Origin: Rathayibacter sp. Leaf185 | Lineage (GTDB): Bacteria; Actinomycetota; Actinomycetes; Actinomycetales; Microbacteriaceae | Direction of reading: 5' to 3' | Assembly (NCBI RefSeq): GCF_001423885.1 | Contig: NZ_LMPP01000001.1 | Coordinates: forward strand, 1-64,000 | Length of the DNA stretch: 64,000 nucleotides | Part shown: positions 15,187 to 20,885 of the stretch, one piece after another | Layout: every line of letters starts with the position of its first letter | Position numbering within the stretch: the stretch's first letter is position 1 | The notes under the pieces: generated by a model | Database searches by the model: none | Told to the model about the DNA's origin: nothing | Seen by the model: the letters and a program-made list of their open reading frames with translations, nothing else | Program-made: the position numbers and the translations under genes

Positions 15187-16203
15187 ATGACGATCACGCT
15201 CGGGTACAAGGCATCAGCGGAGCAGTTCGGGGCGCGTGAGCTCGTCGAGCTCGCGGTCGCCGCCGAGCGCCACGGCTTCGAGAGCGCCGTCGTCTCCGAC
15301 CACTTCCAGCCGTGGCGGCACACCGGCGGCCACGCTCCGTTCTCGCTCGCGTGGCTCGCGGCCGCCGGGGAGCGGACGTCGACCATCCGCCTCGGCACCT
15401 CGGTGATGACTCCGCACTACCGCTACAACCCGGCCGTCATCGCGCAGGCCTTCGGCACGCTCGGCGTGCTCTACCCCGACCGCATCATGCTCGGCGTCGG
15501 TACGGGCGAGGCGCTGAACGAGGTCGCGACCGGCTACCAGGGTGCCGGCGAGCAGACCTGGCCCGACTTCAAGGAGCGCTTCGCGCGGCTCCGCGAGGCC
15601 GTGCGCCTGATGCGCGCCCTCTGGGCCGGCGACCGCGTCACGTTCGACGGCGAGTACTACTCGACCCACGAGGCCTCCATCTACGACAAGCCCGAGGACG
15701 GCGTTCCCGTCTACATCGCCGCGGGCGGCCCGGTCGTCGCGAAGTACGCGGGCCGCGCAGGTGACGGCTTCATCTGCACCTCGGGCAAGGGCATGGAGCT
15801 CTACACCGAGAAGCTGCTCCCCGCTGTCGAGGAGGGGCTCGCGGCAGGTGGTCGCGACTCCGCTGCGATCGACCGGATGATCGAGATCAAGCTGTCGTAC
15901 GACACCGACCCGGCCCTCGCCCTCGAGAACACGCGGTTCTGGGCGCCGCTGTCGCTGACCCCCGAGCAGAAGCACTCGCTGACCGACCCGGTCGACATGG
16001 AGCGCGCCGCCGACGAGCTGCCGATCGAGCAGGTCGCCAAGCGATGGATCGTCGGCTCCGACCCCGACGAGACGGTCGCGCAGATCAAGCCCTACGTCGA
16101 CGCGGGCTTCACCCACCTGGTGTTCCACGCTCCCGGGGACGACCAGCAGCGCTTCTTCGACGCCTTCGAGCGCGATCTGGCACCGCGGCTGCGCGCGCTC
16201 TGA
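15187..16203 (+). CDS. fgd: LLM-class F420-dependent oxidoreductase, glucose-6-phosphate dehydrogenase-like
   Basis: The 338-residue TIM-barrel enzyme resembles F420-dependent glucose-6-phosphate dehydrogenase throughout: [19 protein letters not shown], the [21 protein letters not shown] segment (active-site His in [13 protein letters not shown]), [30 protein letters not shown] and [25 protein letters not shown]. It would reduce F420 using glucose-6-phosphate to feed F420H2-dependent reactions. The neighbour 58 nt downstream is fbiC, which makes the F420 core, so gene order supports the cofactor assignment. The substrate could differ from glucose-6-phosphate, since relatives include F420-dependent alcohol dehydrogenases. 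Confidence 0.85.
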
Positions 16204-16261: not shown

Positions 16262-18637
16262 ATGACCGCCCCCACGGCCGCCGTCCTCGCCCGCCTCGCC
16301 GACGGCGAGCCGATCACCCGTGCCACCGCTGAGATCCTGCTCTCGGCGCGCGGCGACGATCTCGACGCGCTCCTGGACGCGGCGGGGCGCCTGCGCGACG
16401 AGGGGCTCGCCCGCCGCGGCCGCGCCGGCGTCATCACCTACTCGCGCAAGGTCTTCGTGCCGCTGACGAAGCTCTGCCGCGACCGCTGCCACTACTGCGT
16501 GTTCGTCGAGACGCCCGGTGGCCTCGCGGCCAAGCGCGAGTCGACGTTCATGGAGCCGGAGGAGATCCTCGAGGTCGCGCGCGCCGGTGCCGCCCTCGGC
16601 TGCAAGGAGGCGCTGTTCACCCTCGGCGACCGCCCGGAGGACCGCTGGCCGGTCGCCCGCGCCTGGCTCGCCGAGCACGGCTACTCCTCGACGCTCGAGT
16701 ACGTGCGCGCGATGGCGGTGCTGGTGATGAGCGAGACCGGGATGGTCACGCACCTGAACCCGGGCGTGATGTCGTGGGCCGAACTGCAGCGCCTCCGCCC
16801 GGTCGCGCCGTCGATGGGCATGATGCTCGAGACGACGGCCGGGCGCCTGTGGTCCGAGAAGGGCGGCGTGCACTACGGGTCGCCCGACAAGGATCCGGCG
16901 CTGCGCCTCCGCGTGCTCGACGATGCCGGCCGCAGCCGCATCCCGTTCACCACCGGGGTGCTGCTGGGCATCGGCGAGAACGACGCCGAGCGCGCCGACG
17001 CGCTGTTCGCGATCCGCGAGTCGCACGAGCGCTGGGGCCACGTGCAGGAGTGCATCGTGCAGAACTTCCGCGCGAAGCCGCGCACGGCGATGCAGAACGA
17101 GGTCGACCTCGAGCTGCAGGAGTACGTCGCCAACGTCGCGGTCGCCCGGCTGGTCGTCGGCGCCGACGTGACGATCCAGGCGCCGCCGAACCTCACCGAC
17201 GAGCAGGAGCTGGGGCTCCTCATCCGTGCCGGGATCGACGACTGGGGCGGAGTCAGCCCGCTGACCGCCGACCACGTGAACCCCGAGCGCCCGTGGCCCA
17301 ACATCGACGACCTCGCACGCCTGACCGCGGCCGCCGGCTACACGCTCCACGAGCGCCTGACCGCGCACCCGCAGTACCTCCGCGAGGCGGCGACCTGGAT
17401 CGATCCGCGCGTCCAGCCCTACGTGCTCTCGCTCGCCGACCGGGAGTCGTGGCTCGCCGACGAGGCGGCCGCGGTGCTGCCCCGCCCGTACCACGAGACG
17501 CTCGACGCGCCCGCGCGCCCGACGGCTCCGACGCTCTCGGCGGTCCTCGAGCGCGCCGCCGCCGACCCGGCCGGGCTCGACGACTCCGACTACCTGGCGC
17601 TGCTGGCCGCCGACGGCGACGATCTGGAGGCCCTCGCGGCACTCGCGGACGATGTGCGCCGCGAGGCGGTCGGCGACGCGATCAGCGTGGTCGCCAACCG
17701 CAACGTCGACACGTCGCTGTGGGGTGGGGGCTTGAGCGTCGACGGGCTGGAGGCCCTCGCCGACGAGGCCGTGGCCCTCGGCGCGACCGAGCTCTGCCTC
17801 CAGGGCGCCCTGCCCGCGGAGCACTCGGGCGACGACCTGCTCGTCATCGCCCGCACGCTGAAGGCGCGGCAGCCCTCGTTGCACCTGCACGCGTTCCGCC
17901 CCGCCGAGATCCTCGACGCCGCCGCGCGGACCGGTCGGACCCTGCCCGGGATGCTCGAGGCGCTGCGCGACGCCGGAGTCGACTCGGTCCCCGGCACCGC
18001 CGCGCGGATCCTCGACGACGACGTCCGCCGGATCCTGAGCGAGGGCACGGATCCGACGGTCGCCGCCTGGCGGGAGTCGGTGACGGCCGCCCACCGCGCG
18101 GGGCTCCGCTCGACCGCGACGATGGTCTACGGCCACGTCGAGACTCCGGAGCAGCAGATCGCGCATCTGCGACTGCTCGCCGGGATCCAGGACGAGACGG
18201 CCGGCTTCACCGAGTTCATCGCCATGCCCTTCGTGCCGGCAGAGGCACCTCCCACGGTCGTGGCCGTCACCCGCGGCGGGCCGACCCTGCGCGAGACGCG
18301 GGCGGTGCACGCGGTGGCGCGTCTCCTCCTGCACGGCCGCATCGCCCACGTGCAGACCGCGTGGACGAAGCTCGGGCTGCACGCCTCGCAGGTGCTGCTG
18401 CGCGGCGGCGCCGACGACATCGGCGGGCTGCTGCTTGACGGGTCGGCCCCGGAGCTGGGCGCCGAGGCGCACCGCTCGCTCGACACGGCCACCGTCGCGC
18501 GGCTCGCCGGCGAGATCGGGCGGACATGGCGCCAGCGGACGACCGACTACGGGATCGTTCCCGCCGAGCGGGCGCTGCGTCCCGTCGTACGGCCGCTGCT
18601 CCCGGTGCGCGAGTCGCGGATCCGCCGCGTGTCATGA
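16262..18637 (+). CDS. fbiC: FbiC (F0 synthase) with CofG half intact and CofH half lacking its radical-SAM cysteine motif
   Basis: FbiC builds the deazaflavin F0 of cofactor F420 from tyrosine and a pyrimidine precursor, using two radical-SAM domains. The N-terminal CofG half is complete, with the iron-sulfur motif LCRDRCHYC (C72, C76, C79) and PHLNPGVMSW-like, GMMLETT and FTTGVLLGIGE segments. The CofH half keeps GATELCLQGA, HLHAF, PGTAARILDDDVR, TMVYGHVETP and TGFTEF-like blocks, but where the family has NRN, then CxxxCxxC, this protein reads NRNVDTSLWGGGLSV (from residue 479): about 18 residues and all three cysteines are missing. Length is 791 against about 850 in mycobacteria. F0 synthesis by this protein alone is therefore doubtful. 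Confidence 0.88.
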   Translation: MTAPTAAVLARLADGEPITRATAEILLSARGDDLDALLDAAGRLRDEGLARRGRAGVITYSRKVFVPLTKLCRDRCHYCVFVETPGGLAAKRESTFMEPEEILEVARAGAALGCKEALFTLGDRPEDRWPVARAWLAEHGYSSTLEYVRAMAVLVMSETGMVTHLNPGVMSWAELQRLRPVAPSMGMMLETTAGRLWSEKGGVHYGSPDKDPALRLRVLDDAGRSRIPFTTGVLLGIGENDAERADALFAIRESHERWGHVQECIVQNFRAKPRTAMQNEVDLELQEYVANVAVARLVVGADVTIQAPPNLTDEQELGLLIRAGIDDWGGVSPLTADHVNPERPWPNIDDLARLTAAAGYTLHERLTAHPQYLREAATWIDPRVQPYVLSLADRESWLADEAAAVLPRPYHETLDAPARPTAPTLSAVLERAAADPAGLDDSDYLALLAADGDDLEALAALADDVRREAVGDAISVVANRNVDTSLWGGGLSVDGLEALADEAVALGATELCLQGALPAEHSGDDLLVIARTLKARQPSLHLHAFRPAEILDAAARTGRTLPGMLEALRDAGVDSVPGTAARILDDDVRRILSEGTDPTVAAWRESVTAAHRAGLRSTATMVYGHVETPEQQIAHLRLLAGIQDETAGFTEFIAMPFVPAEAPPTVVAVTRGGPTLRETRAVHAVARLLLHGRIAHVQTAWTKLGLHASQVLLRGGADDIGGLLLDGSAPELGAEAHRSLDTATVARLAGEIGRTWRQRTTDYGIVPAERALRPVVRPLLPVRESRIRRVS

Positions 18638-19434
18638 CGCGGCGCGCCGAGTTCCTCGCGCGCCAGGCCGCGATCGTCCACGACGAGTCGATCGACGTCG
18701 GCGGGCGTGCGATGCGCCTCTTGACCGCCGGGGAGCCCTCGGCGGATGTCGTCCTGCTGGTCACGGGGCCGGGCAGAGGGGTGCAGGCCGACACGGCGCT
18801 GCTGCTGCCGATGCTCGCGCGGCGGCGGAGGGTCGCCGCGCTCGACCTGGAGGGGCTCGACGATCCCGTGGGCGCCGTGAGCGCCGCGCTCGATCACCTC
18901 GGTGCCCGCGAGGCGATCGTCGTGGGTCACTCCCTCGGCGCCGCGGTCGCGATCGCCGCGGCCGACGTCGATCCGCGCCTCCGGGCCCTGGCCCTCGTCG
19001 CCGGCTGGCTGCGGCCGACCGAGCGACTCGTGACCCTCGCCCGGCTCTGGCAGACCCTGCCCGCCGAGGCACGGGGCGACCTCGCCCGCCTGATCGCCGT
19101 CCGCTCGCTCACCGAGCTCGGACCCGGCAGGCCGTGGCCGCTCGCCGTCGACTCCGAGCTGCTCGTCGCGGCCGCCTCCGCCGACTCGAGTGCCGCCGCC
19201 GCACGCCTGCGCATCCCGGTGCTCGTGGTCGGCTGCAGCGCCGACGCCGTGGTCGGCGTCGAGGGCGCGGAGGCACTGCTCGGCGCGATCGACGACGCCC
19301 GGTACGCCGTCGTCGACTCGGGCCACGCGGTGCTCGCCGAGCGGCCTGCCGAACTGCTCGCCCTGCTCGAGCACTTCCTCGCCGACCCCCAGCGCGATCC
19401 GGCAGGCTCGGTCCTGCCGCGGATGACGGTCTGA
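18634..19434 (+). CDS. Alpha/beta-hydrolase in the F420/monooxygenase operon
   Basis: The 266-residue enzyme has an alpha/beta-hydrolase core with the nucleophile elbow GHSLGAAVAIAA (Ser about residue 93), a late Asp region (VLVVGCSADAVVG) and the catalytic His in DSGHAVLAERP. Esterase or lactonase activity is likely. The ATG overlaps the fbiC stop, and its own stop overlaps the next ATG, so fbiC, this gene and the monooxygenase gene are translationally coupled. A hydrolase next to a Baeyer-Villiger-type enzyme often opens the ester or lactone that the latter makes; here that is an inference. Confidence 0.8.
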   Translation: MTRRAEFLARQAAIVHDESIDVGGRAMRLLTAGEPSADVVLLVTGPGRGVQADTALLLPMLARRRRVAALDLEGLDDPVGAVSAALDHLGAREAIVVGHSLGAAVAIAAADVDPRLRALALVAGWLRPTERLVTLARLWQTLPAEARGDLARLIAVRSLTELGPGRPWPLAVDSELLVAAASADSSAAAARLRIPVLVVGCSADAVVGVEGAEALLGAIDDARYAVVDSGHAVLAERPAELLALLEHFLADPQRDPAGSVLPRMTV

Positions 19435-20885
19435 TGGACGTCGACGTCCTGATCGTCGGCGCCGGATTCGCGGGGATCGGCGCGGCGACCCGCCTCGCGC
19501 GCCGCGGCGGCGCCTCCTTCGCGGTGCTCGAGCGCGCCGATCGCGTCGGCGGGACCTGGCGCGACAACGACTACCCGAACGTGTCGTGCGACATCCCCTC
19601 GCACCTGTACTCGTACTCGTTCGCGCCGGAGCCGGACTGGTCGGCGTTCTACGCGCCGGGCGCCGAGATCCAGAGCTACCTCGAGCGGGTGGTGGAGCGG
19701 GAGCGGATCGCTCCGCACCTGCAGCTCGGCACCGAGGTGCTCGAGATGGCGTTCGACGAGCCGCCGGGGCGCTGGCGCGTGCGCACCTCGCGCGGCGACT
19801 GGTCGGCCGCGGTGCTCGTCGTGTGCGCGGGGCGACTGTCGGAGCCGCGGCTCCCGGCGACCCCGGGGCTCGAGGCGTTCGCGGGGCCGGTGTTCCACTC
19901 CGCTCGGTGGCGGCACGACGTCGATCTCGAGGGCGCGCGGGTCGGGATCGTCGGCTCGGGCGCCTCCGCGGTGCAGATCGTGCCGCACCTCGCCGAGCGG
20001 GCGGCGTCGGTCGTGCTCTTCCAGCGCTCGGCGCCCTACGTGGTCCCGCGCCGCAACCGCGAGTACCCGCTGGAGGAGCGCCGGACCCTCGCCCGCGTGC
20101 CCGGTGCTCTCGAACGCCTCCGCGACGAGCTGTTCTGGCGGGCCGAGCTCGGCTTCGCGGGCCGTGTCGGCATGCCTGCTGCGATCGACCGGCTGCGCGC
20201 GGAGGCGCTAGGCCACCTCGCCGCCCAGGTCGCCGACCCGGATCTGCGCGCCGCGCTGACTCCCGACTACGAGATCGGCTGCAAGCGGGTGCTGCTGTCC
20301 GACGACTACTACCCCGCGCTGACGCAGCCGCACGTGGCGGTGGTGCCGAGCCCGCTGCGCCGGATCGAGGGGTCGTCGGCGATCGGCGACGACGGTCTCG
20401 CCCACGAGGTCGATGTGCTGGTCTTCGCGACCGGGTTCCACTCGACGCGGCCGCCCTTCGCCCGCCGGATCCGCGGCCGCGACGGCCTGCTGCTCGCCGA
20501 CCGCTGGGCCGAGGGGATGTCGGCCTACGACTCGACGACGGTCCACGGCTTCCCGAACCTCTTCGTGATCAACGGACCCAACGCGAGCCTCGGCCACAAC
20601 TCGGCGATCCACATGATCGAGACGCAGGTCGACTACCTTCTCGCGGCGCTCGATCACCGGGAGGCCGCCGGGATCGACGTGCTCGAGGTGACCGCCGAGG
20701 CCGAGGCCGCGTCGGTCGAGCGGGTGGACGCGCTGAGCGCCGACACCGTCTGGACGAACGGCGGCTGCGAGAGCTGGTACGTCGACGCAGCGAGCCGTCG
20801 CCTGACCCTGCTGTGGCCCGACTTCGCGTTCGCGTTCCGCGAGGAGCTCGGTCGCTTCGACCCGGCGGCGTACGCGTCGGCCTGA
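19434..20885 (+). CDS. Flavin-containing monooxygenase of Baeyer-Villiger type
   Basis: The 483-residue protein has an N-terminal FAD-binding GAGFAGIGAATRL (GxGxxG) after VDVLIV, the Baeyer-Villiger fingerprint FxGxxxHxxxW as FAGPVFHSARW (about residue 142), a second nucleotide-binding motif GIVGSGASAVQIVPHL for NADPH, and the late VFATGFHSTRP motif. Such enzymes insert oxygen next to a carbonyl to give esters or lactones. It starts within the stop of the hydrolase gene (TGATG). The presence of F420 genes in the same unit suggests a shared catabolic or reductive pathway, not proven by sequence. Confidence 0.87.
   Translation: MDVDVLIVGAGFAGIGAATRLARRGGASFAVLERADRVGGTWRDNDYPNVSCDIPSHLYSYSFAPEPDWSAFYAPGAEIQSYLERVVERERIAPHLQLGTEVLEMAFDEPPGRWRVRTSRGDWSAAVLVVCAGRLSEPRLPATPGLEAFAGPVFHSARWRHDVDLEGARVGIVGSGASAVQIVPHLAERAASVVLFQRSAPYVVPRRNREYPLEERRTLARVPGALERLRDELFWRAELGFAGRVGMPAAIDRLRAEALGHLAAQVADPDLRAALTPDYEIGCKRVLLSDDYYPALTQPHVAVVPSPLRRIEGSSAIGDDGLAHEVDVLVFATGFHSTRPPFARRIRGRDGLLLADRWAEGMSAYDSTTVHGFPNLFVINGPNASLGHNSAIHMIETQVDYLLAALDHREAAGIDVLEVTAEAEAASVERVDALSADTVWTNGGCESWYVDAASRRLTLLWPDFAFAFREELGRFDPAAYASA

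Follow-up and report, generated by a model that had tools for sequence, protein, structure and literature searches.

A CofH half of FbiC lacking its iron-sulfur motif and a companion Baeyer-Villiger monooxygenase: a candidate replacement for a radical step of F420 biosynthesis

FO synthase of the coenzyme F420 pathway is known as the fused protein FbiC or as separate CofG and CofH proteins (family profiles NF006687, TIGR03550, and TIGR03551). Its two-radical mechanism is called universal among studied producers in a 2021 review (PMC8498797), and excerpts of two other articles (PMC5408115 and PMC9415550) mention F420 enzymes only in passing. Here we describe the fbiC locus in the first 64,000 bases of contig 1 (NZ_LMPP01000001.1) of Rathayibacter sp. 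Leaf185 (assembly GCF_001423885.1; 4.1 Mb in 9 contigs, 99.99% complete), a stretch hereafter called the window. The window FbiC resembles the known FO synthases in its fused architecture, its CofG cluster motif, its modelled CofH fold, and 38 conserved CofH positions, as well as in the adjoining gene for F420-dependent glucose-6-phosphate dehydrogenase (FGD) and in having cofC, cofD, and cofE elsewhere in the genome. It differs from them in the CofH half, where the cluster and GGIxP motifs are missing and Arg takes the place of Ser at position 546, and in having a Baeyer-Villiger monooxygenase (BVMO) as a neighbour. The aminofutalosine synthase MqnE is a radical S-adenosylmethionine (SAM) enzyme with a cluster. 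The window CofH half differs from MqnE (PDB 6xi9 and 6xig) by the absence of the cluster motif. Judging from the sequences compared below, CofH of this type and the BVMO are likely to form a two-component replacement of the radical-SAM CofH step. In open-access titles and abstract openings, a search that covered neither preprints nor subscription papers, we found no report of such a CofH or of a BVMO in F420 synthesis.

The fbiC gene (16262–18637, forward strand) is open along its entire length, and the AlphaFold2 model of its product has a predicted local distance difference test score of 91.2. In the first half, LCRDRCHYC occupies residues 71–79, and the cluster motif C72-x3-C76-x2-C79 (16475–16498, forward strand) is invariant in an alignment of 65 sequences. 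This half, with CRDRCHYC present, scores 468.3 bits against the CofG profile TIGR03550, above the cut-off of 213.35. The CofH half (residues 415–775; 17504–18586, forward strand) retains the CofH/MqnE fold in the AlphaFold2 model. However, it reads VANRNVDTSLWGGGLSVDGLEALADEAVALGATELC, contains no CxxxCxxC motif, and has C512 as its first Cys. After the NRN sequence (17696–17704, forward strand), a 25-residue loop (17705–17779, forward strand) leads to GATELC and replaces the iron-sulfur segment of intact CofH, which spans 43 residues in all 51 of the 62 intact relatives that could be measured. A preliminary description of this DNA had reported an intact first radical-SAM centre, a second half without CxxxCxxC that was about 18 residues shorter, and an undisturbed reading frame. 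The translation agrees with each of these points, and the estimated shortening is exact. Against the CofH profile TIGR03551, the window FbiC scores 319.8 bits, below the cut-off of 374.1. Its score against the CofGH profile NF006687 (995.9 bits) falls just short of the cut-off (1018) despite the absent second centre, and therefore the CofGH label alone cannot tell F420 production.

Comparison of FbiC across the family showed that the loss of the triad is widespread. The family-level sample comprised 398 genomes, of which 96 had an FbiC match. Among the 90 that were read, 65 encode a triad-less FbiC, a class defined by the absence of CxxxCxxC, 24 encode an intact one, and one (G155) encodes CofG alone. 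For residue comparisons, we assembled a distinct set of 70 triad-less FbiC sequences without the motif (64 from the family sample and 6 from named genomes) and 62 intact sequences with it, after removal of 11 duplicates, two fragments (L045 and L084), and 25 intact sequences not matched by the CofG motif pattern. The same loss recurs in many further species and genera, in nearly all cases within a single open frame, and is therefore not due to chance or sequencing error. L045 (genome G318) is an exception, in which FbiC is open in two overlapping frames owing to a frameshift or sequencing error.

Intact relatives carry the segment NINFTNVCYTGCRFCAF after NRN, where the triad-less proteins have a loop of variable length. 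This loop runs for 21–63 residues to GATE and contains no Cys in the 62 of 70 triad-less sequences measured, the pattern having missed 8 of the 70 triad-less and 11 of the 62 intact sequences. It reaches 63 residues in L062 and has low complexity in L058 and L064, much like an unconstrained loop on the protein surface. The GGIxP motif after the second strand, which we take to be involved in SAM binding, is invariant in intact CofH (G516, I517, and P519 in 103/103). In triad-less CofH, G516 is found in 0/81, I517 in 8/81, and P519 in 25/81 sequences. Residue 546 (17897–17899, forward strand, in the window) is Arg in 81/81 triad-less and Ser in 103/103 intact sequences. At 38 CofH positions, conservation reaches at least 97% in triad-less and intact sequences alike. 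Positions invariant in intact proteins are still conserved at 90% or more in the triad-less class at 55 of 149 sites in CofH and at 137 of 180 sites in CofG.

The median ratio of nonsynonymous to synonymous substitution rates (dN/dS) of the CofH half was 0.189 for 53 close triad-less pairs versus 0.167 for 87 intact pairs, with pairs restricted to dS values of 0.1–0.8. For CofG, the median of 0.088 corresponds to strong selection, and the cluster motif is kept. These ratios indicate that the triad-less CofH half is under purifying selection, and together with the many triad-less genomes they rule out an assembly error or a recent pseudogene. The suggestion in the preliminary description that this half is dead is thus correct in one respect only. 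The cluster motif and GGIxP are gone, and the half has very likely lost the radical chemistry itself, but the domain is not decaying, as seen from the dN/dS values, the 38 shared positions, and the fixed Arg546.

The neighbour that accompanies the triad-less CofH did not figure in the preliminary description. A BVMO gene follows triad-less fbiC in 52/52 testable loci and intact fbiC in 0/56, where loci with less than 3 kb downstream and order-level intact loci, which have short flanks, were left out. Two apparent exceptions without a BVMO were rejected: L270 has the triad, and L271 is cut by a contig end and has the intact-type Ser. Type I BVMOs are defined by two GxGxxG nucleotide-binding motifs, and FxGxxxHxxxW is their fingerprint. 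The fingerprint is present in the partner BVMOs (F149 in 49/50, G151 and H155 in 50/50, and W159 in 49/50), as is the first GxGxxG motif (G9, G11, and G14 in 50/50). In alignments with cyclohexanone and steroid monooxygenases, the active-site residues Asp53 and Arg285 (each in 50/50) fall on the Asp and the KR motif of these enzymes. By these features, the window enzyme (19434–20885, forward strand) is a type I BVMO, with a putative activity that turns a ketone or aldehyde into an ester. With 483 residues, it is shorter than phenylacetone monooxygenase and other type I BVMOs (2ylx, 1w4x, 5m0z, and 4aox; approximately 520–540 residues). The partner BVMOs further differ from these enzymes in their second nucleotide-binding motif, GxGxxA (G174 and G176 in 50/50 and A179 in 49/50), in their tie to triad-less CofH, and in constituting a group of their own: 64 partner BVMOs are separated from 15 non-partner BVMOs of the family with a support of 100.

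Loci in which CofG and CofH are separate proteins clarify which genes belong together. The order-level sample contained 396 genomes, 69 with a match, and some members of two families (f15 and f8; genera g99 and g92) have separate genes, whereas others have the fused one. In 15/15 split loci fetched, CofH is triad-less and lies directly before a BVMO gene on the same strand, with CofG on the opposite strand. G155 (loci L084 and L272), a genome of the window's family, is also split: one contig carries CofG, and a second carries triad-less CofH together with the hydrolase and the BVMO. Intact FbiC is present in several further genomes of its genus (g12). Because the split loci keep the pair together, triad-less CofH and BVMO, rather than FbiC, make up the constant unit. 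That triad-less CofH exists as a separate protein beside the BVMO in other families speaks for its active participation in producing the CofG substrate. The structural or substrate-channelling role proposed in the preliminary description may hold in part. The same loci bear on an alternative in which the CofH half is catalytically inert and serves as a scaffold or to hold the substrate, with CofG or an unrelated enzyme performing both steps and the BVMO serving another role, such as using or protecting F420. The lost cluster motif, the complete absence of G516, and the occurrence of BVMO homologues without FbiC would agree with it. However, a scaffold is difficult to reconcile with a separate CofH next to the BVMO on the strand opposite to CofG, with triad-less CofH on different CofG backgrounds, or with the absence of the BVMO beside intact FbiC, and we consider this alternative improbable.

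Phylogenetic trees, which were quick searches with Shimodaira-Hasegawa-like approximate likelihood ratio support only, also separate the histories of the two halves. In the CofH tree (80 rows, with the motif columns left out), one branch with a support of 100 parts triad-less from intact sequences. The CofG tree (92 rows) forces at least three changes, and CofG of f15 and f8 groups with intact proteins, apart from the fused triad-less clade. A single clade of all triad-less CofG was rejected (approximately unbiased test, p = 0.0008; log-likelihood difference, 107). Triad-less CofH is found on at least three CofG backgrounds. The trees alone give no direction. Because intact CofH is broader (67 of 80 named-genome loci among the matches listed), the simplest history is a module that repeatedly displaced the normal CofH while the resident CofG stayed, and repeated displacement is what equal function would be expected to give. 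The best reading of these comparisons would be a mobile module of triad-less CofH and BVMO, sometimes with the hydrolase.

The remaining F420 genes were examined in triad-less genomes. The preliminary description had allowed for a separate CofH encoded elsewhere. None exceeded the TIGR03551 cut-off in any of 65 triad-less genomes or in a further 25, three of which were called triad-less by score only, whereas 4/4 intact controls run with these 25 passed. A few weak matches elsewhere (e.g., in G263, G328, and G215) reached at most 38 bits, far below the cut-off. The window's own genome contains cofC, cofD, and cofE. Among the genomes tested, cofC was found in 43/43 triad-less (39 over the cut-off) and 15/15 intact ones (13 over the cut-off), cofE in 43/43 triad-less and 14/15 intact ones, and cofD in 29/29 others besides the window's genome, 25 of which are triad-less. 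By these profile matches, the F420 gene set appears to be otherwise present in triad-less genomes, and such strains presumably still make FO and F420. One triad-less genome has two CofE-like genes over the cut-off close together (G371:C1:2980390-2983910). The absence of a passing CofH in the 90 genomes could also mean that FO is no longer made, with FO or an intermediate being scavenged and the cluster kept for another purpose. This is very unlikely, in that CofG, which an FO scavenger would not need, keeps its cluster motif and the low dN/dS given above.

Two further places were considered for a replacement gene. The profile PF04055 matches eight places in the window's genome, two of them within FbiC. 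Three of the six others are presumably MiaB-, LipA-, and SplB-like, and another radical-SAM enzyme as a stand-in for CofH is only partly excluded, since this covers three of the six. Two larger gene families, present at 15 and 12 loci, are confined to the surroundings of cofE. We take one of them to be RsmD-like, and a replacement gene near cofE is likewise only partly excluded.

A change in the product itself was also considered: the module might yield another deazaflavin or an altered F420, the BVMO oxygenating the product or using another aromatic donor. The fixed Arg546 and the altered loop do suggest changed chemistry. However, CofG has kept 137/180 of its intact-invariant positions (CofH, 55/149), CofC, CofD, and CofE were found with scores that mostly exceed the respective cut-offs, and the window FGD, the only FGD scored, lies far above its cut-off (TIGR03554, 629.1 bits versus 420). 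A different product is accordingly regarded as unlikely.

We return to the replacement of the CofH step. That the module stands in for this step is probable, and the pair would hand CofG the same 4-hydroxybenzyl adduct of 5-amino-6-ribitylaminouracil. Whether the BVMO supplies the benzyl donor appears evenly balanced, and it is doubtful that the donor precursor is 4-hydroxyphenylpyruvate itself. Phenylacetone monooxygenase converts phenylacetone to benzyl acetate. The BVMO of the module might act on 4-hydroxyphenylpyruvate or 4-hydroxyphenylacetaldehyde, keto compounds derived from tyrosine, and insert oxygen beside the carbonyl to give a 4-hydroxybenzyl ester, which would shed its acyl group to yield a p-quinone methide. 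The triad-less CofH barrel could then direct an ionic attachment of the p-quinone methide to C5 of the uracil, and CofG would close the ring as usual. This ester and quinone methide scheme, of which we are less sure, would fit the BVMO fold and the dispensable hydrolase. The complete proposal is tentative. The FO precursor would be made with oxygen and without radicals: the BVMO would form a self-cleaving 4-hydroxybenzyl ester, and the former radical-SAM barrel, now without its cluster, would steer the p-quinone methide onto ribityldiaminouracil, the two being combined in a module transferred at least three times.

Several points weigh against the proposed replacement. The proposed BVMO substrate is only guessed from the protein fold, and we know of no documented BVMO that acts on an alpha-keto acid. 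No FO or F420 measurement in a triad-less strain was found in the open-access literature, preprints not included. BVMO homologues of approximately 45–52% identity are also encoded in genomes that lack triad-less CofH or at sites away from it, and therefore the wider BVMO family has other roles. The hydrolase is present in only 13 of the 52 testable triad-less loci, and the gap is below 450 nt in 34 of the 52. Genes may stay neighbours without acting together, and the 52 loci, being related, are not independent. Distances across 54 loci correlate better for CofH and BVMO (0.75) than for CofG and BVMO (0.61), but the difference is only moderate. The CofH tree carries a long-branch warning, so that triad-less CofH probably, but not certainly, arose once. 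Finally, a stand-in for CofH may yet lie among the other three radical-SAM genes of the window's genome.

A broad actinobacterial group, with members from soil and plants, appears to have swapped a radical-SAM step for a flavin oxygenase, which, if true, would be an unusual replacement of such a step by an oxygen-using one. Of the two radical steps in F420 synthesis that are regarded as universal, one would then be replaced by flavin chemistry, one SAM rather than two would be spent per FO, and the barrel would have a use after the loss of its cluster. Such a module might also aid oxygen-tolerant F420 production in other hosts.

Among the 80 named-genome loci listed, 13 are triad-less. They include Rathayibacter, Humibacter, Frigoribacterium, Herbiconiux (a metagenome-assembled genome, MAG), Subtercola, Curtobacterium, Cryobacterium (MAG), Microbacterium testaceum, Promicromonospora soli, and Arthrobacter sp. 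MYb23, as well as MAGs labelled Actinomycetales and Acidobacteriaceae. Humibacter albus DSM 18994 (L098) is one of the strains that carry the module. The contig with the latter label (L102) carries triad-less FbiC and BVMO, through either mis-binning or transfer. Carriage on plasmids appears unlikely: the best 15 of 74 records were at most 46.4% identical.

In the window, four genes run in the same direction: FGD (15187–16203, forward strand), which ends 58 bases upstream of fbiC, then fbiC, an alpha/beta hydrolase gene (18634–19434, forward strand), and the BVMO gene. The hydrolase start was set at the ATG overlapping the fbiC stop (ATGA), and the BVMO start at the ATG overlapping the hydrolase stop (TGATG). 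Under this choice, start and stop codons overlap among fbiC, the hydrolase gene, and the BVMO gene, as in a translationally coupled operon. At eight loci where BVMOs of the wider family lie away from FbiC (L273–L278, L280, and L282), an alpha/beta-hydrolase-like gene was seen by eye directly upstream, which suggests an ancestral hydrolase-BVMO pair.
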